Source of the DNA: a bacterium
GTDB lineage: Bacteria > Thermosulfidibacterota > Thermosulfidibacteria > Thermosulfidibacterales > Thermosulfidibacteraceae
Assembly (NCBI GenBank): GCA_027022065.1
Contig: JALVZS010000083.1
Coordinates: 1 to 15,869 of the forward strand
DNA: 15,869 bases
Reading direction: 5' to 3'
The translations under genes and the position numbers were made by a program. Shown piece by piece: positions 1 to 13,220 of this stretch (position 1 is its first letter; every line of letters begins with the position of its first letter). The notes beneath the pieces were generated by a model. The model saw nothing but the letters and a program-made list of their open reading frames with translations. It searched no databases and had not been told where the DNA came from.

Positions 1-168
1 ATGTGTGAAGATGCATGTCCCATGGATATTCCCGTTTCTCAGGTGTTCAAGGCGGTGGGCAGGGACGTTCAGGCGCTGTTTGAGTATGTGCCTGGAAGGA
101 GCGTTGAGGAGGAGCTTCCTCTCACCACCTTTAGGTATGATGAGCTGCACGAGGTGGAGGATAGGTGA
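1..168 (+). CDS. C-terminal end of an FdhB/FrhB-like iron-sulfur protein (partial, 5' end outside window)
   Basis: The frame is open from base 1 and ends at TGA 166-168, giving 55 visible residues. They begin with the end of a ferredoxin motif (CEDACP) and continue with a VP..VF..V....Q.LF.YVPG tail. The same layout, CEDACP followed by VPVSRLFALV and then FDYVPG, closes the complete gene at 8838-9947, so this is the tail of a paralogue of that gene. The family is the FrhB/FdhB-like (coenzyme F420 hydrogenase/dehydrogenase beta subunit) flavo-iron-sulfur proteins that accompany Hdr complexes. The ATG at base 1 is an internal Met, because by homology it sits inside the Cys motif. The stop overlaps the hdrC ATG by one base, so the gene belongs to the Hdr operon. 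The electron partner (NAD(P)H, F420 or formate dehydrogenase) cannot be seen here. Confidence 0.75.
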   Translation: MCEDACPMDIPVSQVFKAVGRDVQALFEYVPGRSVEEELPLTTFRYDELHEVEDR

Positions 169-716
169 TGGAGGCGAAGGGACTTTTGAAAGAGTTGCTT
201 GAGCTGCCCGGCGGGGATCAGATCCTGAAGTGCATCCAGTGCGGAACCTGCACGGGCTCCTGTCCCATGAGCGATGTGATGGATTACGGACCCAGAAGGC
301 TTTTTGCCCTCATAAAGGACGGAAGTATTAAAGAGGCATTGAGGTCAAACACCTACTGGGTGTGTGCTTCGTGCTACTTCTGCACGGTGCGCTGTCCCAG
401 AGGGATAAAGATCACCGATGTTATGTATGCGCTTAAAGAACTTTCCGTAAAGCAGGGCTTCTATCCTGCCGGCGAGCCCACGGTGAAGATGTATCAGGCG
501 TTCAGGGAGACGGTTGAGGAATACGGTAGACTTTCCGAAGCCAAGATGATGCAGAAGTTCGGCATGAAGGCTCCTCTTGACGTGATAAAGAAGGCTCCTC
601 TTGGGATAAAGCTGTTCTTCAAAAAGCGCATTGAAACCAAGGTGGAGCCTATAAAGAATCTAGATGCTTTTAAGAGGGTTATACAAAAAGCGAGGCAACT
701 GGAGAGGGCGTCATGA
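168..716 (+). CDS. hdrC: HdrC-like heterodisulfide reductase iron-sulfur subunit
   Basis: This 182-residue soluble protein has two classic [4Fe-4S] motifs near the N terminus, C22-C25-C28-C32P and C66-C69-C72-C76P, followed by a helical, Lys-rich C-terminal half. That is the size and layout of cytoplasmic HdrC, the electron wire between HdrA and HdrB in HdrABC complexes. I start it at ATG 168, seven bases after a GGAGG at 156-160. A GTG at 165 in the same frame would add one residue but is less well placed. The ATG overlaps the upstream stop by one base, and the 3' end overlaps hdrB in an ATGA, so translation is probably coupled through all three genes. No membrane segment is present, so it is not the HdrE/DsrM-linked membrane type. 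Confidence in the family is high; the final electron acceptor is unknown. Confidence 0.92.
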   Translation: MEAKGLLKELLELPGGDQILKCIQCGTCTGSCPMSDVMDYGPRRLFALIKDGSIKEALRSNTYWVCASCYFCTVRCPRGIKITDVMYALKELSVKQGFYPAGEPTVKMYQAFRETVEEYGRLSEAKMMQKFGMKAPLDVIKKAPLGIKLFFKKRIETKVEPIKNLDAFKRVIQKARQLERAS

Positions 717-1564
717 AGGCGGTGTTTTATCCGGGGTGCACGCTGAGCACGGCTGCAGGATATAAAGAGTCCATTGAACAGGTTAACAGGGTTCTTCAGG
801 TGGAGCTTCCGGAGGTGGACGACTGGAGCTGCTGCGGTGCCACGGCATACTTTAGCCTTGATGAGCTTGTGGCTTTGGTTCTTCCTGCGAGGAACATAGC
901 CATAGCGGAAAGAGACGGATACGACTGGATCGTTACGCCGTGTAATGCCTGCTATGCCACGCTGAGAAAGGCAAAGGCTATACTTGCGGATAACGAGGAT
1001 TTGAGGCAGAAAGCCAAGCAGGCACTTGAGGAGGAGGGATTAAGCTACAGGGGCAAGCCCTTTATAAGGCATCTTCTGGACTTCTATCTGCTTCCCGAGG
1101 TTTTTGAGAAGGTTAAAGAAAATGTGGTTAAGCCTCTTACAGGCTTGAGGGTGGCTCCCTATTACGGCTGTCAGTATTCCCGTCCTCAGGTGGGGGACGA
1201 GACGGACGATGCGGAAAATCCCGTCAACCTTGACAGGCTCCTTGAGGCACTGGGAGCCGAGGTTGTGGATTACTCTGCAAAAACTGCCTGCTGTGGGGCT
1301 GCCCAGATGGTTGCCCACGAGGATGGATGTTTGAGGCTTGTAAATAGAATTGTTAAAGCTGCCCAGCAGAAGGGGGCGGACGCCATAGTTGCTATATGTC
1401 CTCTCTGTCAGTTCAACGTGGAGACTGCCCAGAAGAAGCTTGGATACAACATTCCTGTGGTGTTCTTCACGCAGCTTATGGGGCTTGCCTTTGGGATACC
1501 GCATGTGAACCTTGGGATGAAGAAGCTGCTCATCCCTGCGGATACTGTTCTTGCAAAAATTTAA
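713..1564 (+). CDS. hdrB: HdrB-like heterodisulfide reductase catalytic subunit
   Basis: This 283-residue protein has two complete CCG-domain motifs: C9, C40-C41, C77, C80 and C153, C193-C194, C229, C232. In methanogen HdrB these bind the two noncubane [4Fe-4S] clusters that reduce the CoM-S-S-CoB disulfide. Spacing fits the family pattern (CX31-39CCX35-36CXXC), and every ligand Cys is kept in both halves, so it is likely catalytically competent rather than a degraded structural copy. It starts at ATG 713, within the hdrC stop (ATGA overlap), with a GGAGAGG upstream. In a bacterium without coenzymes M and B the substrate must differ. Other disulfides or persulfides, or a role as an electron relay to a separate enzyme, are possibilities. 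No DsrC, MetF or other partner gene is in this window to decide. Confidence 0.93.
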   Translation: MKAVFYPGCTLSTAAGYKESIEQVNRVLQVELPEVDDWSCCGATAYFSLDELVALVLPARNIAIAERDGYDWIVTPCNACYATLRKAKAILADNEDLRQKAKQALEEEGLSYRGKPFIRHLLDFYLLPEVFEKVKENVVKPLTGLRVAPYYGCQYSRPQVGDETDDAENPVNLDRLLEALGAEVVDYSAKTACCGAAQMVAHEDGCLRLVNRIVKAAQQKGADAIVAICPLCQFNVETAQKKLGYNIPVVFFTQLMGLAFGIPHVNLGMKKLLIPADTVLAKI

Positions 1565-1577
1565 GCGAGGTGTTGCC

Positions 1578-4500
1578 ATGGGCACCAAGGCGGAGCCGAG
1601 GGTTGGGGTTTACATCTGCCACTGCGGAATAAACATCGCCTACAAGGTGGATGTTGAGGCGGTTAGAGACTACGCTGCCACTTTGCCCCACGTGGTTGTG
1701 GCAAGGGATTATAAGTTTATGTGCTCCAACGTGGGGCAGGAGATGATCATAGAGGACATTAAGAAGTTCAACCTGAACAGGGTTGTGGTTGCCTCCTGTT
1801 CTCCGAGGATGCACGAAAAGACCTTCAGAAAAGCCTGCGAGAAGGGCGGGATAAATCCCTACCTCTTCCAGATGGCGAGCATAAGGGAGCAGGTTTCGTG
1901 GGTTCACGAGGATGAGAAGGAGGCAACAGAAAAGGCGAAGGAGCTGGTTAGGGCTGCCGTTTTCAGGGTGATATATCACGAGCCTCTTGAGAGAAGGTTT
2001 GTGGACATAAATCCCAATGTTCTGGTTATCGGCGGTGGGATTGCCGGCATGCAGGCTGCCCTTGAGATAGCCGATGCCGGAAAAACCGTTTACCTTGTGG
2101 AGAGGGAGCCCAGCATAGGCGGGCACATGGCGAAGTTTGACAAGACCTTTCCCACCTTGGACTGTGCCGCGTGTATCATGACTCCCAAGATGGTTGCTGT
2201 GGGGCAGCACGAAAACATAAAGCTATTTACCAACTCGGTGGTTGAAAGCGTTGAGGGCTTTATCGGGAACTTTAAGGTGAAGATCTGTAAAAAAGCCCGC
2301 TTTGTGGACGAGGACAAATGCACGGGCTGTGGCGAGTGTGCTAAGGTGTGTCCCGTTTCTGTTCCCAACGAGTTTGAGTACGGCATGAACGAAAGAAAAG
2401 CCATATACAGGCCCTTCCCTCAGGCGGTTCCCAATGTGTTCACCATATCAAAACTTGGGGAGTCTCCCTGCAGAAACGCCTGCCCTGCAGGCTTGAACGC
2501 CCACGGGTATGTGAAGCTCATAGGCGAGGGCAAGTTTGAGGAGGCGTTCAAGCTGATAATGGAGAGGGTGGTGCTTCCCGCATCCCTCGGAAGAGCGTGT
2601 CCCGCCTTCTGCGAGAAGGAATGCACCAGGGGTGAGGCGGGAGGTCCCGTTCACATAAGGATGCTCAAGCGCTTTGCCGCCGACTGGTATTACGAGAATA
2701 AGGGAACACAACCGCCCTTTGAGGTGGCTGAGAAGAAGGACAAGAAGGTTGCCGTTGTGGGTGCCGGTCCCGCCGGTCTTTCCTGCGCGTTCTATCTGGC
2801 GAAGGAGGGCTATCAGGTTACGGTGTTTGAGAGGGAGGCGGAGCCGGGCGGTATGGTGAGGTATGCCATTCCCGAATACAGGGTGCCCAAGGATGTGCTC
2901 GCCAAGGACATTGAAGTGATCAAGAACATGGGCGTTGAGATAAAGACCGGCGTTTGTGTGGGCAGGGATGTTACCATAGATGACATTTTCAAGCAGGGTT
3001 ATGATGCCGTCTTTCTCGGTATAGGTGCGTGGAAGGACAGAAGGCTCAATGTTCCCGGCGAGGATCTTGAGGGAGTATACACCTCCATTGACTTCCTCAA
3101 GAGGGTGAACACAGGTGAAAGGCCCGATCTTGGCAGGAAGGTGGCCGTTATAGGCGGCGGTAACTCCGCCATAGATGCGGCAAGGGTTGCCAAGCGCCTT
3201 GGAGCGGATGTTACCATCTACTACAGGAGAACCAGAAAGGAGATGCCTGCATTCCCTGAGGAAGTGGAAGCTGCCCTTGAGGAGGGCGTAAAGATAGAGT
3301 TCCTCACCACACCCGTTGCCTTTAAGGGCAACGGCAGGGTCTCCAAGATGGAGCTTATCCGCATGGAGCTTGGAGAGCCGGATGAGTCCGGAAGAAGGCG
3401 CCCTGTTCCCATTGAAGGTTCCAACTACGAGGTGGATGTGGACTCCGTTATCCTTGCCATAGGTCAGGTGCCCGATTCCGAGGTCTTTGCCAAGTTTGGC
3501 ATTGATCTCAACAGAAACGGCACGGTGAGAGTAGATCCCGAAACCCTCATGACATCAAGAGAGGGCGTCTTTGCCGGAGGAGATGCGGTAACGGGACCGT
3601 CAACTATTGTTGAGGCTATAGGCTGGGGCAGAAGGGCTGCCTATTACATAGCTAAATACCTTGAGGGTGCAAATCTCAAAGAGGTGAAGCCCTACGATGC
3701 GGACAGACTCCCGGTTGTGGACAAGTCTCAGGTGTTCAAGAGGGAGAGATTTGAGGTGGTGGAGCGCTCTAAGATAAAGGAGCTTCCCGTTGAGGAGAGG
3801 ATAAAAGGCTTTGCCGAGGTGGAGCAGCCCTTTACCGAAGAGGAGGCTGTGAAGGAAGGTTCCCGCTGTATGGACTGTGCCATATGCTGTGAGTGTAAAC
3901 AGTGCGAGCTTGCCTGCGAGGCTCAGGCGATAAGGCACGATCAGAGGGACGAGATAATTGAAGTGGATGTTGGCTCCATCATCGTTGCCACAGGATTTAA
4001 GACCTTTGATCCCACGCCTCTTTACAGATACGGCTACAGGAGGTTCCCGGAGGTTTACACAAGCATTGAGTTTGAAAGGCTCAACAACGCGGCAGGTCCC
4101 ACCGAGGGAAAGATAGTTATGAAAAACGGCAAAGTGCCCGAAAGCGTTGCCATTATACACTGCGTTGGCTCAAGGGATGAAAACTACCACAGATACTGTT
4201 CCCGCGTGTGCTGCATGTACTCCATGAAGTATGCCCACCTCATAAGGGAAAAGACAGGGGCGGAGGTTTACGAGTTCTACATTGACATAAGGGCTCCCGG
4301 AAAGATGTATGAGGAGTTCTACAACAGGGTGCAGGAGGAGGGGACCCATTTCATCAGAGGCAAGGTGGCTGAGGTTACGGACATTGCCGAGACGCCTGAG
4401 GAGGAAGGCAAGCTCATAGTGGTGGTGGAGGATACCCTTGCGGGCAAGGTGAAGAGGTATCCTGTGGACATGGTTATCTTAAGCGTTGCCCTTGAGCCTG

Positions 4501-4958
4501 CTGACGGAGCCGAGGAGCTTGCAAGAATCCTTGGCATATCCCAGGATCAGGATGGTTGGTTCATAGAGCTACATCCCAAGCTTGCTCCTGTTTCCACGGC
4601 ATCCGACGGTATCTTCCTTGCAGGCTGCTGTCAGGGTCCCAAGGACATACCGGATACGGTGGCTCAGGCATCGGGCGCTGCAGCAGAAGCCCTGTCCCTC
4701 ATAATGAGGGGCAAGGTGGAGATAGAGGCTGCCACTTCCCACATAGATCCGGAGGTGTGCGTTGGCTGTCAGCAGTGTAGGGAGGTCTGTGCCTACAGTG
4801 CCATAGATTACGATGCCGGAAGGGGTGTGTGCGTGGTGAACGAGGCGCTCTGTAAGGGATGCGGTCTGTGCGCTGCCACATGTCCCAACAAAGCAGTTAC
4901 CCTGAAGCACTTTAAGAACGAGCAGATACTTCACGAGCTGGAGGGCATACTGCTATGA
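1578..4958 (+). CDS. hdrA: HdrA with an inserted NfnB/GltD-type NAD(P)H:FAD oxidoreductase module
   Basis: The protein is 1126 residues, against about 650 for a plain HdrA. Residues 1-140 are the HdrA N-terminal domain with possible cluster ligands C14, C16, C49 and C74. The HdrA FAD motif GGGIAG is at 152-157, the HdrA-specific LDCAAC at 194-199, and the first ferredoxin motif at C248-C251-C254-C258. An inserted NfnB/GltD-like module then runs from about 290 to 767. It has Cys pairs C298/C302 and C341/C345/C349, FAD motif GAGPAG (395-400), NAD(P) motif GGGNSA (526-531), an YRRTRKEMPA stretch of the kind that contacts NADPH phosphate (549-558), and GGDAVTG. HdrA resumes with a Cys-rich cluster site (764-780), CVGSR (862-866), YCSRVCC (873-879), and two C-terminal ferredoxin sites (C1061-1071, C1092-1102). 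It likely exchanges electrons between NAD(P)H, ferredoxin and HdrC/B. ATG 1578 follows an AGGTG-type site; an in-frame TTG at 1551 lies inside hdrB and lacks one. Confidence 0.92.
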   Translation: MGTKAEPRVGVYICHCGINIAYKVDVEAVRDYAATLPHVVVARDYKFMCSNVGQEMIIEDIKKFNLNRVVVASCSPRMHEKTFRKACEKGGINPYLFQMASIREQVSWVHEDEKEATEKAKELVRAAVFRVIYHEPLERRFVDINPNVLVIGGGIAGMQAALEIADAGKTVYLVEREPSIGGHMAKFDKTFPTLDCAACIMTPKMVAVGQHENIKLFTNSVVESVEGFIGNFKVKICKKARFVDEDKCTGCGECAKVCPVSVPNEFEYGMNERKAIYRPFPQAVPNVFTISKLGESPCRNACPAGLNAHGYVKLIGEGKFEEAFKLIMERVVLPASLGRACPAFCEKECTRGEAGGPVHIRMLKRFAADWYYENKGTQPPFEVAEKKDKKVAVVGAGPAGLSCAFYLAKEGYQVTVFEREAEPGGMVRYAIPEYRVPKDVLAKDIEVIKNMGVEIKTGVCVGRDVTIDDIFKQGYDAVFLGIGAWKDRRLNVPGEDLEGVYTSIDFLKRVNTGERPDLGRKVAVIGGGNSAIDAARVAKRLGADVTIYYRRTRKEMPAFPEEVEAALEEGVKIEFLTTPVAFKGNGRVSKMELIRMELGEPDESGRRRPVPIEGSNYEVDVDSVILAIGQVPDSEVFAKFGIDLNRNGTVRVDPETLMTSREGVFAGGDAVTGPSTIVEAIGWGRRAAYYIAKYLEGANLKEVKPYDADRLPVVDKSQVFKRERFEVVERSKIKELPVEERIKGFAEVEQPFTEEEAVKEGSRCMDCAICCECKQCELACEAQAIRHDQRDEIIEVDVGSIIVATGFKTFDPTPLYRYGYRRFPEVYTSIEFERLNNAAGPTEGKIVMKNGKVPESVAIIHCVGSRDENYHRYCSRVCCMYSMKYAHLIREKTGAEVYEFYIDIRAPGKMYEEFYNRVQEEGTHFIRGKVAEVTDIAETPEEEGKLIVVVEDTLAGKVKRYPVDMVILSVALEPADGAEELARILGISQDQDGWFIELHPKLAPVSTASDGIFLAGCCQGPKDIPDTVAQASGAAAEALSLIMRGKVEIEAATSHIDPEVCVGCQQCREVCAYSAIDYDAGRGVCVVNEALCKGCGLCAATCPNKAVTLKHFKNEQILHELEGILL

Positions 4959-5383
4959 GTGAAAAGGGCTTTGAACCCAAAATTGTTGGTTTTTTGTGCT
5001 ACTGGTGCAGCTACACGGCAGCCGACCTTGCCGGTATCAGCAGGCTGAAGTATCCGCCGAACATACGCATAATCAGGGTTATGTGCTCAAGCAGGGTGGA
5101 TCCCGTTTTCATCATAAAGGCTCTTCTTGATGGAGCCGACGGCGTTTTGGTTGCAGGCTGCAAGCCGGGGGACTGCCACTATCAGAAGGGCAACTATTAC
5201 GCAAGGAGAAAGGTTGCCCTTACCAAGAAGATCCTTGAGAGCCTCGGGCTTGAGCCGGAGAGGGTGATGCTTTCGTGGGTTCCCGCTTCTGAAGCTCCCA
5301 AGTTTGCTGAAGTGGTAAAGGAGTTTACCGAAAGGATTAGGAAACTCGGTCCCAATCCTATGAAGGAACGGGTATTTGTCTGA
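4955..5383 (+). CDS. mvhD: MvhD-like [2Fe-2S] protein, copy 1
   Basis: This 142-residue protein has the signature of MvhD (methyl-viologen-reducing hydrogenase delta subunit). It has CYWC at 15-18, VMCS with C44, GADGVLVAGC with C69 and PGDCHY with C74. All five conserved cysteines are present. In methanogens MvhD carries one [2Fe-2S] cluster and docks an electron-donating enzyme (the MvhAG hydrogenase or a formate dehydrogenase) onto HdrA. Its ATG overlaps the hdrA stop in an ATGA, so it is coupled to the NfnB-containing HdrA and probably binds its C-terminal ferredoxin domain. A second copy at 8397-8822 follows the second HdrA protein, so each HdrA appears to have its own MvhD. No hydrogenase large or small subunit lies next to it. 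Confidence 0.93.
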   Translation: MSEKGFEPKIVGFLCYWCSYTAADLAGISRLKYPPNIRIIRVMCSSRVDPVFIIKALLDGADGVLVAGCKPGDCHYQKGNYYARRKVALTKKILESLGLEPERVMLSWVPASEAPKFAEVVKEFTERIRKLGPNPMKERVFV

Positions 5384-5397
5384 TGCGGAGGTGAGCC

Positions 5398-8385
5398 ATG
5401 GCTGAAAGCACTGTGCTTGTTTACGGAACCAACCTTGCAGGCTACAGGGCAGCATACACTTTGGCCAAGATGGGATATAAAACCGTGCTTCTCAATAGAG
5501 GCTCCTACGTGGACCAGTTTAAAAATCAGGCTCTTGCCCAGCTTCCTCTGGACTTCTGCTGGGCCTGCGGACACATGCCACAAAGATTGTTTATAGGTCT
5601 GGGGGCTTTGCAGGTCTTTTACAATGCGGAGGTGCTTTCCGTTGAGGGAGAGCCCGGCAACTTCACGGTGAAGGTGAGAAAGAGGGATCAGTATGTGAAC
5701 AACCTTGCCTGCACCGAGTGTGAGGCGTGCATCAGGGCGTGTCCCATTGAGGTGGAAACGGAAAACGGCAAGAGAAAGGCCATCTATGTGATTCCGGAGA
5801 TAGCGTGGGAAAACATCTTCATGATAGATGAGGAGCACTGCACTAAATGTAAGAAGTGTGAGGAGGTTTGTCCCACCAAGTGCCTTGCTGTGGAAAGGCC
5901 CACGGAGGAAGTGGAGCTGAAGGTGGGAGCCATAATTCTTGCCCTTGAGTATGAGGAGCCCACCGAGGAGGATTTAGAGAAGTTTGCATACAGCCATCCC
6001 AATGTGGTTAAAAATTCCGATCTCGCAAGAAGATCGCTTCTTACCAACTTTGTGAAGAACTCTTTGGCAAGGCCCTCTGACGGCAAGATTGCTAAAAAGA
6101 TAGCGGTGATAGCAACGCCCCAGTATAACGACAGAGAGTTTGAAAGCTACAACACCACGGTTTCTGCCGTTTACAGGGCCTACAAGATAAAGGAGATTTA
6201 TCCCGAAGCCGAAGTGGTGCTCTTTATGAGGGATTTCAGGGGCTATGGAAAGGGCCATTACAGGTGGTTTGAGAGGGCGCTTGAAAAGGGCGTCAGGCTT
6301 GTCAGGGCCGAGGATGTAAGGGTGAAGGCTTCGGAGGCCAAGAAGAGGAGCAAAGACAATCCCGTTGTGGTTTACAGTGAAAAGGGCAAGGAGAATGAGG
6401 AGAGCTTTGAGCTTGTGATTTTAGTTACGGGGCAGAAGGCTCCATCGGGAATGGAAAAGATAGCGAAGGTTTTCGGCGTTGAGGCGGATGAGCACGGCTT
6501 CTGCAGGGTTAAGCCTTTTACCGCTGGGGAGACCAATGTTGATGGCGTTTATGCCATCGGGGAGTTTACGGGACCAAAAGGTAACCCCGAAATAGTCTGG
6601 GAGGGGTATGGAGCAGCCACGGAAATAAGACGTTTCCTTGGCGATAAAAACTTTGCCCCCTCCCCTCCTCCCCCCCTCCGTAATGTGAGTGGCGAGCCCG
6701 TTAAGGTGGGGGTCTTTATCTGTTCCTGCTTTGGCGAGTTCAACAGATTCCTTGATCTTGAAGCGTTGAAAGAGAAGGTTGCCAAGATACCTGGTGTTGC
6801 CCATGTGGAGATCATAAAGGGATGCTGCACTCCACCCACCATGAAGGATACCGCAGAGAAGATAAAGGCTTCTGGCGTTAACAGGGTGGTGCTTGCGGTG
6901 TGCACGCCCCTGCAGAAGCTGCTCAAATATAGAAGAACCGTGATGATGGCAGGGCTCAATCCGCTTCTTTCCGAGTTCCTGAGGCTCAGGGAAGATGTGA
7001 TAAGGGTCCACGAGGACAAAGACAAAATGTTGGAGAAGGCATACGCCCTCATATACGGGGGCGTTGAGAAGGTGAAGAGAGCTGTTGCCGAGCCTCCCCC
7101 TGCTGGAAAGATCAAAAGCGGTGTGATCGTTCTTGGAGGCGGTGCGGCAGGGCTTGAAACGGCAAGGCTTCTTGCGGAAAGAGGAGTGCAGGTTTACCTG
7201 GTGGAAAAGGGCAAGGAACTTGGCGGTCTTGCAAGGAATCTTACCAAAGACCTTGAAGGAGACGACATCAAGTCCCACCTTGAGAGTCTCGTAAAGGCAG
7301 TGGAAGAAAACGAGAGAATAAAGGTCTTCAAGGGCTACGAGCTTGTGGAGCTTGAGGGAACCGCAGGAAGATACTTCGGCATGATTGAGAATAAAGAAGA
7401 GGGGCAAAGCGTTGCTCTTGAGGCGGGAGCCATCGTTCTTGCAACTGGCGCTCAGGAGTTCAAGCCCGATGGACTCTACGGATACGGGGAGACGGACAGG
7501 GTTATGACCCAGAGCGAGCTGGAAAGGGCGATAGCAGAGGGCAAGGTAAATGCCAAAAAAGTTGTTATGATCCAGTGTGTTGGATCAAGAAACAAAGCTC
7601 GTCCATACTGCTCCCGCGTGTGCTGCTCCCACGCCCTCAAAAACGCCATAGATCTTGCCGAAAAAGGAGCTGAAGTAACCATCCTCTACAGGGACCTCAA
7701 CACCTACGGGTTCAAGGAGGATTACAGGAAGATAGCCGAGGAGAAGGGAGTGAAGTTTATCCGCTTTGACGGAAGCAACTATCCCAAGCTGGTTTCCAAG
7801 GATCCCTTGAAGATAGAGGTGGAGACCACCGAGGGTGAAAAGCTTGAACTTGAGGCAGATCTTCTGGCGCTTTCCGTTGGCATAGTGCCCAATCCCGATA
7901 ACAAAAAGCTTTCCGAGCTTCTTAAGTTCAACCTTGATCCCGACGGCTTCTTTGACTCCGATGCCAACGCCTGTCCCTTTGAGGAGGCTATTAAGCGCCT
8001 CATGAAGCCCTTTGAGCTTTCCACCAAGGGCATATTCGCCGTGGGACTTGCCCACTCACCGAGGTCCTACACGGAGGCGCTTCTTACCGCGAAGGATGCC
8101 GCCGGAAAGATACTCACATTCATCACCAAGCCGCAACTTCCGCCTCCCAACGCCATGTATGTCTCTGCGGTCAGGGAGTCCAAGTGCACAGGCTGCGGCA
8201 TGTGCGTTACCGTTTGCCCGTATTACGCCCGTTCCATTGACGAAGAGAGAAAGATTGCGGTGGTCACGCCGTATCTGTGCGATTCCTGCGGAGCGTGCCT
8301 TGTTGCCTGTCCCAGCGAGGCAGCTTACCTCAGGGATGCAAGGGGCGAGATGATGATACCTTACATTGACGCCCTGCTGGTTTAG
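5398..8385 (+). CDS. Tandem HdrA-like flavo-iron-sulfur protein (two HdrA modules in one chain)
   Basis: The protein is 995 residues and built from two HdrA-like modules. Module 1 (about 1-418) lacks the HdrA N-terminal domain. It starts at once with a FAD-type fold whose glycine motif is degenerate (GTNLAG, 10-15), keeps an LDFCWAC equivalent (51-57), and has two ferredoxin sites, C105-C108-C111-C115 and C148-C151-C154-C158. It lacks the CVGSR and YCSRVCC motifs. A Pro-rich linker (about 421-426) follows. Module 2 has the HdrA N-terminal domain (C442, C444, C476, C477, C502), an intact GGGAAG FAD motif (580-585), CVGSR (727-731), YCSRVCC (737-743) and two C-terminal ferredoxin sites (C930-940, C961-971). 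It lacks the internal ferredoxin insert. The modules are thus complementary, together making one full set of HdrA cofactor sites plus a spare FAD fold. It starts at ATG 5398 after a GGAGGTG. QmoA/QmoB-like or BamE-like relationships are alternatives within the same superfamily. Confidence 0.88.
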   Translation: MAESTVLVYGTNLAGYRAAYTLAKMGYKTVLLNRGSYVDQFKNQALAQLPLDFCWACGHMPQRLFIGLGALQVFYNAEVLSVEGEPGNFTVKVRKRDQYVNNLACTECEACIRACPIEVETENGKRKAIYVIPEIAWENIFMIDEEHCTKCKKCEEVCPTKCLAVERPTEEVELKVGAIILALEYEEPTEEDLEKFAYSHPNVVKNSDLARRSLLTNFVKNSLARPSDGKIAKKIAVIATPQYNDREFESYNTTVSAVYRAYKIKEIYPEAEVVLFMRDFRGYGKGHYRWFERALEKGVRLVRAEDVRVKASEAKKRSKDNPVVVYSEKGKENEESFELVILVTGQKAPSGMEKIAKVFGVEADEHGFCRVKPFTAGETNVDGVYAIGEFTGPKGNPEIVWEGYGAATEIRRFLGDKNFAPSPPPPLRNVSGEPVKVGVFICSCFGEFNRFLDLEALKEKVAKIPGVAHVEIIKGCCTPPTMKDTAEKIKASGVNRVVLAVCTPLQKLLKYRRTVMMAGLNPLLSEFLRLREDVIRVHEDKDKMLEKAYALIYGGVEKVKRAVAEPPPAGKIKSGVIVLGGGAAGLETARLLAERGVQVYLVEKGKELGGLARNLTKDLEGDDIKSHLESLVKAVEENERIKVFKGYELVELEGTAGRYFGMIENKEEGQSVALEAGAIVLATGAQEFKPDGLYGYGETDRVMTQSELERAIAEGKVNAKKVVMIQCVGSRNKARPYCSRVCCSHALKNAIDLAEKGAEVTILYRDLNTYGFKEDYRKIAEEKGVKFIRFDGSNYPKLVSKDPLKIEVETTEGEKLELEADLLALSVGIVPNPDNKKLSELLKFNLDPDGFFDSDANACPFEEAIKRLMKPFELSTKGIFAVGLAHSPRSYTEALLTAKDAAGKILTFITKPQLPPPNAMYVSAVRESKCTGCGMCVTVCPYYARSIDEERKIAVVTPYLCDSCGACLVACPSEAAYLRDARGEMMIPYIDALLV
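6656..6679. other. Uninterrupted pyrimidine tract (C-rich + strand, G-rich - strand) encoding the inter-module linker
   Basis: Twenty-four bases are only C or T on the + strand, including a run of seven C at 6670-6676. They encode the Pro-rich linker between the two HdrA modules. On the - strand the tract has G-runs of 5, 4 and 7 (the last divisible into two triplets) separated by one to four bases, which meets the usual rule for a G-quadruplex. The C7 run is also a candidate slippage site. Formation or slippage in the cell is inference. Confidence 0.5.
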
Positions 8386-8390
8386 GAGGT
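8384..8390 (+). promoter_or_regulatory. Shine-Dalgarno site that fixes the start of mvhD copy 2
   Basis: AGGAGGT overlaps the last bases of the hdrA2 stop region and lies six bases before ATG 8397. An in-frame TTG at 8391 directly abuts the site and is therefore too close to be used, so the protein should begin MADKEF rather than two residues earlier. Confidence 0.7.
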
Positions 8391-8396
8391 TTGAAG

Positions 8397-8822
8397 ATGG
8401 CAGACAAAGAATTCACTCCCAAGGTTTTCTATGCCCTTTGTGCGTGGTGCGGGAGCGGTGGTTCCGAAACGGCGGGAGCCTACTGGCTCAAATACCCCGA
8501 AAATGTGCGTCCGTTCAGGGTTATGTGCACGGGTGCCCTTGATTCTGCCTATGTTCTGAGGGCGCTAATAGAGGGTGCCGATGGCGTTGCGGTAAGCGGA
8601 TGCCACCCGGGAGACTGCCATTATAACATCGGAAACTTCAGGGCAAGAAGGCGCATAGCCGTTATGAAGGAGATACTAAACACTTTCGGAATAGATGGGG
8701 ACAGGGTGTGGCTCAGGTGGGTTGCCCACGGCGAGGGCAAAAAGCTTGCAGATACCGCCACTGAATTTACCGAGCATATAAAGAAAAAGGGTCCAAGCCC
8801 GCTAAAGCGGTGGGATACATAG
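8397..8822 (+). CDS. mvhD: MvhD-like [2Fe-2S] protein, copy 2
   Basis: This 141-residue paralogue of the MvhD at 4955-5383 keeps all five cysteines at identical positions (C15, C18, C44, C69, C74) and the GCHPGDCHY signature. It diverges around the first motif, where CAWCGSGGSE replaces the CYWCSYTAAD of copy 1, so the two probably dock different partners. It follows the tandem HdrA protein by 11 bases and precedes the FdhB/FrhB-like gene by 15 bases. By family knowledge it should carry one [2Fe-2S] cluster and bridge the C-terminal ferredoxin sites of the tandem HdrA to another redox subunit. The adjacent FdhB/FrhB-like protein is the obvious candidate. Start chosen at ATG 8397 from the ribosome-binding site spacing. 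Confidence 0.92.
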   Translation: MADKEFTPKVFYALCAWCGSGGSETAGAYWLKYPENVRPFRVMCTGALDSAYVLRALIEGADGVAVSGCHPGDCHYNIGNFRARRRIAVMKEILNTFGIDGDRVWLRWVAHGEGKKLADTATEFTEHIKKKGPSPLKRWDT

Positions 8823-8837
8823 ACGGAGGGAAGAGCC

Positions 8838-9947
8838 ATGGCGCTGGGTGTTATCTACACCGGAGAACCTGAAGCTGCAATAAAAGATTTCGTGAAGCTT
8901 CTTATGAAGCATAAAGATATACAAGGGGCAGTTATCCCTGTTAAGATGGAAAGAGAAGGCTCGTATGCCTTCGTCTTTACAAAAAGCCCTGAAGTTGTGG
9001 ATAAAAGCTCTCCCATAGCTCCCGTTATGCCCGTTCAGGGGGCGAGGGTTCTATCAAAGCTTACTAAGAGAAAGCCCTTAACAAAGCCTGCCGTTGCGGT
9101 GCTCAAGCCCTGTGAAGTTAGGGCTGCAAGGGAGCTTTCCAAGATAAATCAGGTGTGCATGGAAAGCTTCATCACGGTGAGCTTTGACTGTCCGGGAGTG
9201 TATCCCACAAAGAGCTTTTTAAAGAATGCAGATGCCCTTGAGGAGGAGTTTAAAAAGGGCTTGAAAGGGCTTTCCGTTTCAGGTGTGCGTCCTCTGTGTG
9301 AGTCCTGTACATACTTTACTGGAGAGTTTGCGGACTTTGAGGTGCAGTTTGCAGGTATAAATGAGGTGAGGATAATAGCAAGAAGCCAAAGGGCAGAGGC
9401 TATACTGAAGGGTTTAGGAAAGGCCGAGGAAGTTGAGGAAAGAGATAAAAAGGCGATAGAGGCGGTGCTTGAGGCAAGGAAGAAGGCAAAGGAGGCGTTG
9501 AAGACCGAGTTTGCCGAAAAGGTGTCCACGCCGGAAAAGCTCTTAAGTGTTCTTTCCAGCTGCATAAACTGCCACAACTGTAGAAGCGTGTGTCCCATAT
9601 GCTTCTGCAGGGAATGCTTCTTTGACTCTGACTCATTGAAGACGCCACCGCACCTTTACCTTGAGAGGGCGAGCAGAAAGGGTGGCTTGAGGTTCATGCC
9701 CGATACACTGCTTTTTCACTTAGGCAGGATGAACCACATGAGCCTGTCCTGCGTCTCCTGCGGAACCTGTGAGGATGCATGTCCCAACATGGTGCCTGTA
9801 AGCAGGCTCTTTGCCCTTGTCTCTGAAAGAACCAGAGCCATATTTGATTATGTCCCCGGGATTGACGATAGACCCTCGCCATTCCTTGAATACAGAGAAG
9901 AGGAGCTTGAAGAGTACGAAATGCCCTATTACGAAGCGAGATCCTAA
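8838..9947 (+). CDS. FdhB/FrhB-like iron-sulfur flavoprotein (F420 hydrogenase/dehydrogenase beta-type)
   Basis: This 369-residue soluble protein has an N-terminal FrhB/FdhB-type domain with the family hallmark LKPCEVRAARELSKINQ (89-105) and further cysteines at 107, 118, 154 and 157. A charged helical stretch follows (about 195-235). Then comes a Cys-dense site, C242-C245-C248-C252 with C255, C257 and C260, and a last ferredoxin motif C305-C308-C311-C315P ahead of a VPVSRLF and FDYVPG tail. Family members bind FAD and [4Fe-4S] clusters and pass electrons to or from F420, NAD(P)H or formate dehydrogenase. They are common next to hdrA/mvhD in bacteria where no F420 hydrogenase exists. The start at ATG 8838 follows GGAGGG. 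It is the last gene of the Hdr block and a paralogue of the partial gene at 1-168. Its donor or acceptor is unknown; no formate dehydrogenase large subunit is present. Confidence 0.85.
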   Translation: MALGVIYTGEPEAAIKDFVKLLMKHKDIQGAVIPVKMEREGSYAFVFTKSPEVVDKSSPIAPVMPVQGARVLSKLTKRKPLTKPAVAVLKPCEVRAARELSKINQVCMESFITVSFDCPGVYPTKSFLKNADALEEEFKKGLKGLSVSGVRPLCESCTYFTGEFADFEVQFAGINEVRIIARSQRAEAILKGLGKAEEVEERDKKAIEAVLEARKKAKEALKTEFAEKVSTPEKLLSVLSSCINCHNCRSVCPICFCRECFFDSDSLKTPPHLYLERASRKGGLRFMPDTLLFHLGRMNHMSLSCVSCGTCEDACPNMVPVSRLFALVSERTRAIFDYVPGIDDRPSPFLEYREEELEEYEMPYYEARS

Positions 9948-9956
9948 GAGTTTGGT

Positions 9957-10412
9957 TTGGATGCGAAGCGTCTCTGGCTCGTTGGCGGTATAGCGTATCA
10001 ACTTATTATATATGCCACACTTCCCTTTACCCCTTCTTTTATAAACGCCTGTTCCCGAAGGCTAGGGGCAGGCGTTTTTGGTTTAGTGTTTACCGCTTTT
10101 GTGGGAGTGTCTATAGCACTTCTGGCTGTTTGGCTGGCTTTATCTGGTAGGGTTTTAAAGCTCTTTTTGCTTGGTATTGCCGTTACGGGGCTGTTTTTGT
10201 GCAAGATGACACCCTACGAGAGGTTCCATGTGGTTGAGTATGCCTTGCTCGCTTTTCTTTATAAAAATGGAACGGGAAGCAGAAAAAAGGCGTTTGTTCT
10301 TGCATCTATTGGCGGGGTTCTTGATGAAGTTATCCAGTGGCTTCTGCCCAACAGATATTTTGATCTAAAGGATATTTTATGGAATGTGGTAGGTGCGTTC
10401 TTGGGGGAATAG
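9957..10412 (+). CDS. VanZ-like small membrane protein
   Basis: This 151-residue hydrophobic protein has about five membrane segments (roughly 5-22, 38-61, 66-83, 90-103, 112-129) and a possible short last one. The second half fits the VanZ-like family: H91..E94Y, then D123E..Q127, R133, D136..D139 and N143..G146. VanZ was first described as an accessory teicoplanin-resistance protein, but most bacterial homologues have no known function. The only in-frame start upstream of the first membrane segment is TTG 9957, nine bases after the previous stop and with a poor ribosome-binding site. An ATG at 9961 is out of frame. Base composition is more AT-rich than in the Hdr genes. A strong terminator-like hairpin lies inside the frame at 10043-10079, so read-through from the Hdr operon may be limited. 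Confidence 0.75.
   Translation: MDAKRLWLVGGIAYQLIIYATLPFTPSFINACSRRLGAGVFGLVFTAFVGVSIALLAVWLALSGRVLKLFLLGIAVTGLFLCKMTPYERFHVVEYALLAFLYKNGTGSRKKAFVLASIGGVLDEVIQWLLPNRYFDLKDILWNVVGAFLGE
10043..10079 (+). terminator. Intrinsic-terminator-like hairpin inside the VanZ-like frame
   Basis: A perfect 9-bp inverted repeat, AAACGCCTG (10043-10051) and CAGGCGTTT (10069-10077), encloses a 17-base loop in which CCC (10054-10056) can pair with GGG. The right arm runs into five T (10075-10079), then GGTTT. This is a good rho-independent terminator for rightward transcription of the Hdr operon, but it lies about 90 bases inside the VanZ-like coding sequence. It may be an attenuator, or chance in a coding region. 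Confidence 0.5.
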
Positions 10413-10414
10413 TC

Positions 10415-10443
10415 TTGATCGTTCGGTGATGCTGAAATATACC
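10415..10443 (+). promoter_or_regulatory. Possible sigma70-type promoter for vapBC
   Basis: In the 51-base gap after the VanZ-like stop, TTGATC (10415-10420) and TATACC (10438-10443) are spaced by exactly 17 bases, each matching four of six consensus positions. It would start transcription about 15 bases before the vapB ribosome-binding site GGGAGG (10456-10461). The match is modest and rests on position as much as on sequence. Confidence 0.35.
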
Positions 10444-10466
10444 TAAGTACAGACAGGGAGGATGTG

Positions 10467-10661
10467 GTGAAGAAAGCATACATTTTAAAAAATGGGAACT
10501 CAATTGCGGTTAGATCCCTTGGGGAATCCCGTGTGAATGTTTCGAAAAAATGGGATGATCTTTTTGAAGAATTGGAAAAGGCAGGGGAGCTTCTCAAAGA
10601 TTTTCTTGTTGAAAGGGAGCAACCTTTATTTCAGAAGAGAGAACTTTTTGGAAAACTTTGA
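10467..10661 (+). CDS. vapB: VapB-like antitoxin with an apparently shortened AbrB domain
   Basis: About 64 residues lie directly before vapC, with the toxin ATG overlapping the stop by one base (TGATG), the usual antitoxin-toxin layout. The N terminus KKAYILKNGNSIAVR matches the first strand-turn of VapB/VagC AbrB-type antitoxins (NGxSQAVR). The C terminus KKWDDLFEEL followed by VEREQP..Q.RE matches their toxin-wrapping tail. Between them only about ten residues remain where family members usually have about 25-30, so much of the DNA-binding swapped hairpin seems to be missing. Two adjacent GTG codons, 10464 and 10467, are candidate starts. The GGGAGG at 10456-10461 favours the second on spacing. 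It should neutralise VapC and repress its own promoter, though the repression role is in doubt given the shortening. Confidence 0.7.
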   Translation: MKKAYILKNGNSIAVRSLGESRVNVSKKWDDLFEELEKAGELLKDFLVEREQPLFQKRELFGKL

Positions 10662-11065
10662 TGATTTACATGCTGGATACCAATATTTGTGCTTATATTA
10701 TAAGGGAGAGGCTTCCGAATGTTAAGGAGAGGTTGAAGCAGGTAGCTGAAGCCGGATGTGAGGTGAGCCTTTCTTCAATAGTGGTTTCCGAGCTTTTCTA
10801 TGGAGCCTATCGTAAGGGATCTTCTAGGATTTTAGAGCTAATAGAAAGGTTTGTGGAGAACTTCAAAATTTATGAGTTTGATCTCAATGCGGCGAGAAGA
10901 TACGGAAAACTTAGAGCTGATCTTGAAAAGGAGGGCGAGATTATTGGACCTTATGATCTCCAAATTGCGGCTCATGCGATGGCAATAAGAGCTATTCTTG
11001 TTACTAATAATGAAAGGGAATTTAAAAGGATCACAGGTTTGAAAGTGGAGAACTGGGCTTGCTGA
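10661..11065 (+). CDS. vapC: VapC-type PIN-domain toxin ribonuclease
   Basis: This 134-residue single PIN domain has the acidic site residues D6 (YMLDTN), E44 (VVSELFYGA) and D99 (GPYDLQIAAHA), plus the LVTNN..EF.R..GLK.ENW ending typical of the VapC subgroup that cleaves initiator tRNA or similar RNA. All Mg2+-binding positions are present, so it looks active. ATG 10661 overlaps the antitoxin TGA by one base, giving coupled translation. A TTG three bases earlier is in frame but less likely. It ends four bases before the stop codon of ftsK on the other strand. Toxin-antitoxin pairs of this kind are mobile, and the more AT-rich base use here is in keeping with acquisition. Confidence 0.9.
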   Translation: MIYMLDTNICAYIIRERLPNVKERLKQVAEAGCEVSLSSIVVSELFYGAYRKGSSRILELIERFVENFKIYEFDLNAARRYGKLRADLEKEGEIIGPYDLQIAAHAMAIRAILVTNNEREFKRITGLKVENWAC

Positions 11066-11069
11066 AGTT

Positions 11070-13220
11070 TCAGTCCTCTTGGGGGCTTGCGTTGTCGTAG
11101 AGGTTGACTTCTGGTTTTTTCCTGATCAGCACTTCCCTTGGTTTACTGCCCTGGGCTGGTCCAACTATTCCGTTTTTCTCCATTAGGTCTATTAGGCGTG
11201 CGGCGCGGTTGTAGCCTATTTTGAAGTGCCTCTGTAGCAGACTTGCTGAGGCGTATCCCAGGTTTGTTACAAACTCCACTGCCTCATCGTAAAGCTCGTC
11301 CACCTCATCCCTTACATAATCGCTGTCCGAGGAGCTTACGCCATTAACTTTTGGTTTTGAGAAGATCTTATCATTGTATTCTGGCGCTGCCTGCTGCTTC
11401 CAGAAGTTTGCTATGGTTTCTATCTCTCCATCGCTTATGTATGCACCGTGAAGCCTTATAAGTTCCGACTTTCCAGGGGGCATGAAGAGCATGTCTCCGT
11501 TGCCCAAGAGCTTTTCTGCTCCTACTGTGTCAAGGATGGTGCGGGAGTCTACCTTTGAGCTTACCTTGAAGGATATGCGGGAGGGGAAGTTTGCCTTTAT
11601 AAGACCAGTTATTACATCCACAGAGGGTCTTTGTGTTGCAACTATTAGGTGTATTCCCGCTGCTCTGGCCTTTTGGGCCAGTCTTGCTATCTGGAGCTCT
11701 ACATCCTTTCCAGCTACCATCATGAGATCTGCAAGCTCATCAATAACTATCACTATGTAGTGGAGTTTTTCTTCGGCCTTTGCGTTGTAGCTTTCTATGT
11801 TCCTTACGCCTGCCTCTGAAAGCATCTGGTAGCGCTTTTCCATTTCGTCCACCGCCCAGGATAGTGCTTGGGCTGCCTGCTTGGGATCTGTTATTACAGG
11901 CACTACCAGGTGGGGAATGCCGTTGTAAACAGAAAACTCCAGCATTTTGGGATCCACAAGTATAAATTTTACATCCTCAGGGGTTGCCTTGAAAAGTATG
12001 CTGCAAATCATGGAGTTGAGTCCAACGCTCTTTCCTGAACCTGTGGCTCCCGCAACCAGAAGATGTGGCATCTTTCTTAGATCCGTTACGAAGGGTTTGC
12101 CAAATATGTCCTTTCCTAGGATGAGGGTGAGGGGGGATTTACTCTTTTCAAACTCCTCTGAGTTTAATATCTCCGAGAAATACACGATTTCCCTTTCATC
12201 GTTGGGGAGCTCAATGCCTATGGTGTCTTTACCGGGTATGGGGGCAACTACCCTTACGCTTCCCGCCTTCATTACCACGGCGATGTCGTCTTGGAGATTG
12301 AGTATCTTGCTCACCTTTATGCCTGGAGCAGGCTTGTATTCAAACATGGAAACTACAGGCCCGTAGTGGATACTCACCACCTTGCCAGATACCCCAAAGT
12401 CCCTGAGCTTTTCCTCCAAAAGGGCGGCTTTGGCTTCAAGCTCTTTGGGGTTTATTTTCTTCTTTTCCTTTTTGTATGAGCGAAGCATGCTGGGAGAAGG
12501 AAGCTTGTAGTGGCGGCTGGGCTTTGGAGGTGGGAGGTTGGTTTCCTCTGTTTCTTCCTGCCTTGGGCTCAAGGCCTCTTCAAGCTCGCCTGCTCCTTCA
12601 ACTATTTTTATTGACTCTTGCTGTGGCTGCTCGGGGGCAAAGGCTTCAAACTCATCTTTTTTCTCCTGCACAGGGGGGATATACTTGGACTCTTCTTTTA
12701 CCTTTGTCTCTTCCCTGTGTGCTTCTTTAGGTACTTGTGATTTTTCCTTTTTAAGTTTTGGTGGTTTGAAAATGGAAAATACGCGCTTTATCTTTTGGTC
12801 CAGTTCAAAAGCTATGAATAGTAGCACGAACAGGCCTATAAGTAGTAGGTTTGAACCTAGTACGCCAATGTTTGCTATGAGCTTTTTCTTAAGGTAAAGT
12901 GCTAGCGTTCCTCCCCAAACTCCTTTAAACCAAAGGGCCGATGCAAGCTCTAGGATAAAGAAAAACAACACCACGTAAAGGGCATATATAACAGAGCGGA
13001 AGATCCTGCCGATAAGGATGCCTATGGACACGAAAAACAGAGAAATAGGAATGGAAAAGGAAAGTATTCCAGCATTTTTGAAAAGGAAGGTTCCTAGATC
13101 AAGCCCTATGCCTCCCACGAAATTAGATGAAAGATTTAACAAGGGGGAGGCAATAGAGACCCCTACAAATACCGAAAATAAAGCAAGCAAAATACCGTAT
13201 GCCTTTCTTAGTGCCACCAT
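11070..13220 (-). CDS. ftsK: FtsK/SpoIIIE-family DNA translocase
   Basis: This 716-residue protein anchors in the septal membrane and pumps chromosomal DNA during division. The N terminus has about four hydrophobic segments (8-28, 48-70, 76-96, 116-138). A charged, Pro/Glu/Lys-rich linker runs from about 145 to 255. Then come the alpha/beta motor with Walker A GATGSGKS (391-398), Walker B IVIDELADLM (491-500) and ATQRPSVDVITG, and a C-terminal gamma winged-helix domain (about 635-700). The gamma domain contains QRHFKIGYNRAARLIDLME, the DNA-polarity (KOPS/SRS) recognition helix. Length resembles SpoIIIE-type proteins and is much shorter than E. coli FtsK, whose linker is long. The start at ATG 13220 has no clear ribosome-binding site and sits just after a hairpin. 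Only 36 bases separate it from the upstream aldolase/phosphatase gene, so it probably depends on that operon or on a promoter inside it. Confidence 0.96.
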   Translation of the reverse strand: MVALRKAYGILLALFSVFVGVSIASPLLNLSSNFVGGIGLDLGTFLFKNAGILSFSIPISLFFVSIGILIGRIFRSVIYALYVVLFFFILELASALWFKGVWGGTLALYLKKKLIANIGVLGSNLLLIGLFVLLFIAFELDQKIKRVFSIFKPPKLKKEKSQVPKEAHREETKVKEESKYIPPVQEKKDEFEAFAPEQPQQESIKIVEGAGELEEALSPRQEETEETNLPPPKPSRHYKLPSPSMLRSYKKEKKKINPKELEAKAALLEEKLRDFGVSGKVVSIHYGPVVSMFEYKPAPGIKVSKILNLQDDIAVVMKAGSVRVVAPIPGKDTIGIELPNDEREIVYFSEILNSEEFEKSKSPLTLILGKDIFGKPFVTDLRKMPHLLVAGATGSGKSVGLNSMICSILFKATPEDVKFILVDPKMLEFSVYNGIPHLVVPVITDPKQAAQALSWAVDEMEKRYQMLSEAGVRNIESYNAKAEEKLHYIVIVIDELADLMMVAGKDVELQIARLAQKARAAGIHLIVATQRPSVDVITGLIKANFPSRISFKVSSKVDSRTILDTVGAEKLLGNGDMLFMPPGKSELIRLHGAYISDGEIETIANFWKQQAAPEYNDKIFSKPKVNGVSSSDSDYVRDEVDELYDEAVEFVTNLGYASASLLQRHFKIGYNRAARLIDLMEKNGIVGPAQGSKPREVLIRKKPEVNLYDNASPQED

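Follow-up and report, generated by a model that had tools for sequence, protein, structure and literature searches.

An Hdr operon of Thermosulfidibacterota encodes two HdrA units, one of them a tandem HdrA with a degenerate N-half under purifying selection

An operon on a contig of Thermosulfidibacterota (JALVZS010000083.1) encodes, together with an HdrA that carries a GltD/NfnB-like insert, a tandem HdrA whose N-half is without FAD motif, HA3 ligands, K409 and E356 yet retains the predicted HdrA fold, a combination that, judged by sequence, appears to be new. The whole stretch of DNA analysed (15,869 nucleotides) is hereafter called the window. We see about an even chance that the eight genes of the operon specify a single soluble complex, flavin-based, bifurcating or confurcating and organised around two HdrA units, whose assembly, substrates, ligands, electron path and direction we infer.

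Results

The gene content, order and spacing given in a preliminary description of this DNA were confirmed (Table 1), with neighbouring genes either overlapping by 1-4 bases or lying 11-15 bases apart. Both of the FdhB-like proteins said to flank the set belong to that family, with the match strongest in the iron-sulfur C-terminal part, but FdhB1 is present here only as its end, cut at the contig edge. Relatives carry the gene in full, and the fragment shares 67-83% identity with its C-terminal end there; a full-length relative matches FdhB 9t1s_M (E=8.7e-36). The features of soluble HdrABC were found, namely two CCG motifs in HdrB, two [4Fe-4S] motifs in HdrC, and FAD motif, HA3 ligands, K409 and E356 in HdrA. 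The cysteine count is consistent with the proposed twenty or so iron-sulfur clusters; for the three or four flavin sites proposed, three canonical FAD motifs were present (in HdrA1, the insert and the tandem C-half) but that of the tandem N-half is lost, this count covering the HdrA-type units and the insert. As had been noted, there is no catalytic hydrogenase (MvhA/MvhG) in the operon; it has no catalytic subunit of formate dehydrogenase (FdhA) either, and the operons of the phylum relatives have neither. Similarly, no MetV/MetF-like open reading frame was found in the operon of the window, and none is annotated in the operons of relatives.

Table 1. Features of the Hdr operon in the window.
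Feature	Coordinates	Strand	Basis or remark
FdhB1, FdhB/FrhB-like, last 55 codons (C-terminal)	1..168	+	truncated by contig start
HdrC, two [4Fe-4S] motifs	168..716	+	NCBIfam HdrC E=1.8e-23, under curated cut-off; eight cysteines in two motifs
HdrB, two complete CCG motifs	713..1564	+	Pfam CCG in two stretches; cysteine spacing
HdrA1, complete HdrA plus GltD/NfnB insert	1578..4958	+	HdrA 8rvu_a matched in two blocks, residues 3-292 and 766-1124
GltD/NfnB-like insert, about residues 293-765 of HdrA1	2454..3872	+	FAD and NADP(H) Rossmann motifs
MvhD1, [2Fe-2S] FlpD domain	4955..5383	+	Pfam FlpD E=2.9e-58
Tandem HdrA, N-half	5398..6672	+	lacks the N-terminal domain, FAD motif, HA3 ligands, K409 and E356; HdrA fold kept
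Tandem HdrA, C-half	6673..8385	+	N-terminal cluster domain, FAD, HA3, E356, K409, C-terminal ferredoxin
MvhD2, [2Fe-2S] FlpD domain	8397..8822	+	Pfam FlpD E=9.2e-41
FdhB2, FdhB/FrhB-like iron-sulfur protein	8838..9947	+	Pfam FrhB_FdhB_C E=8.1e-7; FdhB 9t1s_M E=9.7e-29

The tandem HdrA (5398-8385, + strand) comprises two fused HdrA thioredoxin-reductase-fold domains, and the degeneracy of its N-half was overlooked in the preliminary description. The FAD motif, HA3 ligands, K409 and E356 are all present in HdrA1 and in the C-half, and all are missing from the N-half in nine of nine aligned degenerate members, where GxGxxG is replaced by GTNLxG, K409 by Tyr and E356 by Ala or Val; the type II rule of K409 plus E356 in both halves thus does not hold for this protein. 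The four HA3 cysteines are gone in every aligned degenerate sequence and retained in the other 42. What the N-half keeps, the Cys197 equivalent and two ferredoxin-type (inserted) clusters, is complementary to the C-half, which has neither Cys197 nor the inserted ferredoxin domain.

Among the 53 proteins compared, 11 are degenerate tandem HdrAs, and these form one clade (support 100/100) that is under purifying selection, with dN/dS of 0.07-0.10 in the two pairs with estimable dS, one of them near saturation. As a fold search with the model of the whole tandem HdrA weighed mostly the C-half, the N-half was modelled separately; folded alone, its predicted structure matched HdrA 8rwn_A with a Z score of 36.3 and an rmsd of 2.9 Å over 406 residues. 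Simple decay of the N-half was rejected on the basis of these dN/dS values and the kept HdrA fold.

In HdrA1, the insert separates the two clusters that belong to the inserted ferredoxin domain, a feature of type III HdrA. Its best matches are NfnABC (9n5u; E=7.8e-144) and the large subunit of Pyrococcus NfnI (5jca; E=6.4e-104). The first of its motifs (FAD) is GAGPAG and the second GGGNSA, with the NADP(H) motif GGGNSA...YRRTRKEM common to the insert and Pyrococcus NfnI, in which YRRTRKEM is identical. These NfnI-type FAD and NADP(H) motifs support the earlier proposal that NAD(P)H enters via the inserted module.

Both halves of the operon were found in eight of the nine phylum genomes examined, while the ninth (G006) shows the first half as far as mid-HdrA1, followed by a contig end. 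The gene order lies on single contigs at L022 and L025, and likewise at L024, where HdrC is missing from the ORF calls; elsewhere in the phylum it is interrupted by contig ends. Since this order recurs across the phylum, the gene set is not a chance association. No HdrA locus other than this operon was seen in the nine genomes. All eight proteins also occur together, without the GltD/NfnB insert, in a Desulfococcus MAG (L036), and a search of viral contigs with MvhD1 returned no relatives.

The loci collected are the 80 best matches to the query, and frequencies drawn from them are biased. Among these best 80, ordinary tandem HdrA is widespread with other partners such as MetVF, and in several loci it is accompanied by FdhB with no second HdrA nearby. 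The degenerate tandem HdrA always has FdhB1 adjoining in the loci examined, in two different gene orders. The refutation raised earlier, occurrence of the second half alone with an unrelated partner, thus has a mixed outcome: ordinary tandem HdrA is seen with other partners, whereas the degenerate type, in the loci examined, was never seen apart from FdhB1. Some related tandem-HdrA loci elsewhere adjoin MetVF plus CODH genes.

Metabolism was read from retrieved contigs and from family searches (one Pfam family per absence call), with absence calls covering nine draft genomes, the host's own being 88% complete. Genes of beta-oxidation, 2-oxoacid:ferredoxin oxidoreductases, succinate dehydrogenase and complex I were present on the retrieved contigs, and the host is apparently a heterotroph using beta-oxidation. 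A recognisable acetyl-CoA synthase was found in none of the nine genomes, so a role in Wood-Ljungdahl carbon fixation is not supported. The F420 ligase (PF01996, single family) was similarly found in none of the nine; F420 is for this reason not supported as the FdhB ligand, and its use through the FdhB-like proteins seems unlikely. Family searches across the phylum genomes detected no DsrC, which was thus rejected as partner of HdrB, and neither FeFe hydrogenase nor Rnf, which were rejected as ferredoxin outlets.

Discussion

How much energy many anaerobes have to spend is set by flavin-based bifurcation, in which HdrA is among the most reshuffled modules. An N-half without flavin and cluster ligands that is nevertheless under purifying selection would represent a natural separation of function, and the tandem HdrA could reveal which half bifurcates and which only wires electrons. 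The operon is furthermore a candidate for linking NADPH to ferredoxin in a phylum that is uncultured and apparently heterotrophic, and whose genomes showed no Rnf, FeFe hydrogenase, F420 ligase or acetyl-CoA synthase.

In the single complex proposed here, unit 1 would be HdrA1 with the GltD/NfnB module spliced into the ferredoxin-exit domain, seating NADP(H) at the usual docking place of free ferredoxin; HdrCB would form the high-potential thiol/disulfide branch, and MvhD1-FdhB1 the electron arm. Unit 2 would be the tandem HdrA as a covalent pseudo-dimer, its C-half holding a working flavin and HA3 cluster and its N-half having given up the flavin, with the Cys197 equivalent serving the shared N-terminal cluster and the two ferredoxin-type clusters able to face free ferredoxin; MvhD2-FdhB2 would be its arm. 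Most likely, the complex would couple ferredoxin, NADP(H) and some thiol/disulfide at HdrB in a beta-oxidising, 2-oxoacid-oxidising anaerobe. The fuller version, an asymmetric eight-subunit complex in which two bifurcating flavins in series join NADP(H), ferredoxin and thiol/disulfide and one HdrA half, once a flavoenzyme, has become a flavin-free electron relay and scaffold, is speculative and rather doubtful. Of the bifurcating or confurcating machine originally envisaged, what stands is the soluble Hdr-type flavoprotein set, conserved as a unit and with an NAD(P)H port; what finds no support is its role in carbon fixation in the Wood-Ljungdahl form.

The pairing of each HdrA with a separate MvhD and FdhB would also be expected of two separate complexes that are merely co-transcribed, i.e., an NADP(H)-linked HdrCBA1-MvhD1-FdhB1 and a tandem HdrA-MvhD2-FdhB2 with another partner, and the loci with ordinary tandem HdrA and FdhB but no second HdrA point the same way; yet there is a single HdrBC pair, and the degenerate tandem HdrA keeps FdhB1 beside it in both gene orders, so that we consider this arrangement possible, though not probable. 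The N-half might alternatively bind FAD non-canonically and provide a second active flavin site, as its intact predicted fold would allow; the substitutions of the FAD motif, K409 and E356 and the loss of the HA3 cysteines in all aligned degenerate sequences make this unlikely.

Docking of a hydrogenase or formate dehydrogenase encoded elsewhere, on MvhD or FdhB, is suggested by L037, where genes for NiFe hydrogenase subunits follow the gene set downstream, and by one molybdopterin oxidoreductase candidate in G002. However, clear NiFe large subunits occur in only three of the nine genomes, the small subunit of the NiFe hydrogenase examined in G000 is of the exported type, the molybdopterin matches in G000 are NuoG-like by position, and no FeFe hydrogenase was detected in the phylum genomes, which together render such docking distinctly unlikely. 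The supply of reduced ferredoxin to carbon fixation, as read in the preliminary description, finds a parallel in the tandem-HdrA loci elsewhere with MetVF and CODH genes, but as acetyl-CoA synthase was found in none of the nine genomes, MetF is missing from the operon and its surroundings, and the gene content is catabolic, it is very improbable.

The novelty first attached to the assembly was overstated, as the literature since 2009 describes HdrA fused to GltD, HdrA in tandem, and loci that combine hdrL, hdrA, mvhD, fdhB and hdrBC. Locus VIII of Desulfobacterium autotrophicum HRM2 (hdrL, hdrA4, mvhD, fdhB, hdrBC; PMC2702500), compared by its published composition, is almost the same in make-up and likewise places an HdrA-GltD fusion beside a second HdrA plus MvhD, FdhB and HdrBC, but its hdrA4 is described without MvhD, whereas the present operon has two MvhD, two FdhB and a tandem HdrA with degenerate N-half. 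The methanogen HdrABC-MvhAGD and HdrABC-FdhAB complexes (5odc, 7bkb) share homologues of HdrA, HdrB, HdrC, MvhD and FdhB, but the operon here lacks MvhA/MvhG and FdhA and contains two HdrA types and an NADP(H) module. Type III HdrA (ANME HdrA9-11) carries the GltD/NfnB insert, with an NAD-type motif reported for the archaeal proteins (PMC12054007, PMC9012536), although the source leaves open which of the two motifs was read as the GxGxxG of NAD preference; the present case differs in its bacterial operon, its separate tandem HdrA and, apparently, its NADP(H)-type motif. In NfnI/NfnABC (5jca, 9n5u, 9bov), the similar GltD-like FAD/NADP(H) module forms a subunit or belongs to a different fusion, while here it is inserted in HdrA. 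Type II (tandem) HdrA, represented by ANME HdrA3/4 and Moorella MetFV-HdrABC-MvhD (PMC12054007, PMC9012536), also consists of two fused halves that complement each other in N-terminal domain and Cys197, but in the published proteins each half has the key residues, and the Moorella cluster includes the metV/metF missing here. The components (HdrA with GltD/NfnB insert, tandem HdrA, FdhB neighbours) are thus already known, while the assembly and the repurposed half look new.

Gene content and conservation of the operon

The window represents the first 15.9 kb of the 33.3-kb contig G000:C83 of the source genome, and its Hdr operon consists of eight nearly gapless genes, identified by profile and PDB searches as FdhB1, HdrC, HdrB, HdrA with an insert (HdrA1), MvhD (MvhD1), tandem HdrA, a further MvhD (MvhD2) and FdhB2. 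The double Hdr locus of the preliminary description was borne out except on two points: its flavin count did not hold, and the first gene proved truncated, with only the last 55 codons of FdhB1 in the window. The two ORFs that follow the operon were not seen at the corresponding position in the relatives' loci.

Coordinates of features in the window and in loci (L) of related genomes (G)
Sequence	Coordinates	Strand	Feature
Window	1-9947	+	Hdr operon, eight genes
Window	1578-4958	+	HdrA1; insert at approximately residues 293-765
Window	5398-8385	+	Tandem HdrA (N-half 5398-6672, C-half 6673-8385)
Window	9957-10412	+	VanZ-like ORF
Window	10658-11065	+	PIN-domain ORF
Window	13257-14354	-	Archaeal-type fructose-1,6-bisphosphatase (PF01950, E=3e-189), adjoining a ROK-family kinase ORF
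L023 (G008)	4070-5235		FdhB2 as two overlapping ORFs
L026 (G003)	106-1243		FdhB2 as two overlapping ORFs
L036 (Desulfococcus MAG)	9736-11178		Pyridine nucleotide-disulfide-oxidoreductase-like ORF (by eye) after HdrA1
L161; L173	7470-9670; 3632-9660		NuoF-like protein carrying Fer4 domains at its C-terminus, next to a 2Fe-2S-type protein; NuoE/NuoF-like set in G004
L167	1-7487		Complex I gene set without NuoEFG (by eye)

Conservation was examined across nine genomes, which represent a single order of the phylum. The complete gene order lies on a single contig in two loci (L022 and L025) and recurs on one contig in a third (L024), where HdrC is not among the called ORFs; in the remaining genomes it is interrupted by contig ends, yet consistent. 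Both operon halves are present in eight of the nine genomes; the G006 contig is cut off within HdrA1, and a tandem HdrA was not found in that genome. None of the nine showed a second HdrA locus. Identity to the window within the phylum is 63-75% for tandem HdrA and 69-85% for HdrA1. The split FdhB2 of two genomes reflects a frameshift or an assembly error.

A degenerate half in the tandem HdrA

Residues of the tandem HdrA were scored on 5odc numbering. The C-half retains the cysteines of the N-terminal cluster, the FAD motif, the ligands of the iron-sulfur cluster HA3, E356 and K409, and is without Cys197; the N-half is without the N-terminal domain, and retains the equivalent of Cys197 together with the two clusters of the inserted ferredoxin domain. 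In the N-half, GxGxxG is changed to GTNLxG, K409 to Tyr and E356 to Ala or Val, and no HA3 cysteine is left. These losses are common to all nine degenerate-type sequences in a 51-sequence alignment; in each of the remaining 42, the HA3 cysteines, the lysine and the glutamate are preserved, as is a GxGxxG or GxGxxA motif. The N-halves of two further loci, L185 and L186, likewise have no CVGSR motif, and the resulting 11 sequences form one clade (support 100/100).

On the stem of this clade the N-half accumulated ~3.1 changes per column, versus ~1 in the C-half, and within the clade dN/dS is 0.07-0.10 (two pairs with estimable dS, one near saturation). The AlphaFold model of the tandem HdrA is confident (pLDDT 87, pTM 0.88), and a separate model of the N-half retains the HdrA fold, with best Z scores of 36 against HdrA and 22 against thioredoxin reductase. 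Judged from its sequence, the N-half is predicted to bind no FAD, and it probably underwent a burst of change before settling into a new, conserved and flavin-free role.

The insert of HdrA1

Two blocks of HdrA1 (residues 3-292 and 766-1124) align with HdrA of known structure, and the insert falls between the two clusters of the inserted ferredoxin domain. The insert matches NfnABC (9n5u; E=7.8e-144) and also the Pyrococcus NfnI large subunit (5jca), with YRRTRKEM identical after the second Rossmann motif, a motif that suggests a preference for NADP(H). Since HdrA1 of the Desulfococcus MAG has no insert despite being 71-72% identical in the flanks, the insert was either acquired or lost inside this family of complexes. 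The oxidoreductase-like ORF after that HdrA1 could hint at a disulfide partner.

Distribution outside the phylum

With the N-half alone as query and a strict E-value, matches among 386 genomes were in seven of the phylum's genomes and in two from elsewhere. Outside the phylum, the set tandem HdrA-MvhD2-FdhB2-FdhB1 recurs in four loci, and in three of them MvhD1 comes next; HdrC-HdrB-HdrA1 continue the set in the Desulfococcus MAG, and NiFe hydrogenase subunit genes lie downstream in L037. Among 80 GTDB loci picked by similarity to the query, FdhB-like neighbours were found in 30, at least two HdrA ORFs in 35, an HdrA-NfnB fusion in 12 and MetF in 14. The building blocks are widespread and the exact assembly is uncommon.

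Host metabolism and proposed mechanism

Acetyl-CoA synthase, DsrC, F420 ligase, FeFe hydrogenase and Rnf were not found in the nine genomes. The contigs examined from the phylum encode acyl-CoA dehydrogenase, thiolase, succinate dehydrogenase, EtfAB adjoining a membrane HdrD-like protein, 2-oxoacid:ferredoxin oxidoreductases and complex I (several of these genes named by eye from translations). The complex I set without NuoEFG is distinct from a NuoEFG-containing set on L160. In G004, genes for 2-oxoacid:ferredoxin oxidoreductase are immediately followed by a NuoE/NuoF-like set, a possible NADH-ferredoxin link. Three of the nine genomes have clear NiFe large subunits, and the small subunit of the source genome bears the C-terminal domain of exported enzymes.

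The mechanism we favour is an Hdr complex that would link NADP(H), ferredoxin and thiol, in which the N-half of the tandem HdrA would serve as a flavin-free relay; its assembly as one complex, its ligands and its direction are what we infer.

Comparison with known systems

In the literature searched, no account was found of a tandem HdrA in which one half is degenerate. Related arrangements are on record: in Desulfobacterium autotrophicum, HdrL (an HdrA/glutamate-synthase fusion) was reported in 2009 in a locus with hdrA4, mvhD, fdhB and hdrBC (PMC2702500), and Seep-SRB1g has adjacent HdrABC copies (PMC10553843). HdrA9-11 of ANME, fused HdrA and the complementarity of the N-terminal domain and Cys197 have been published (PMC9012536), as have HdrA types II and III (PMC12054007). 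Archaeal type III HdrA carries a GltD domain at the same place as the HdrA1 insert.
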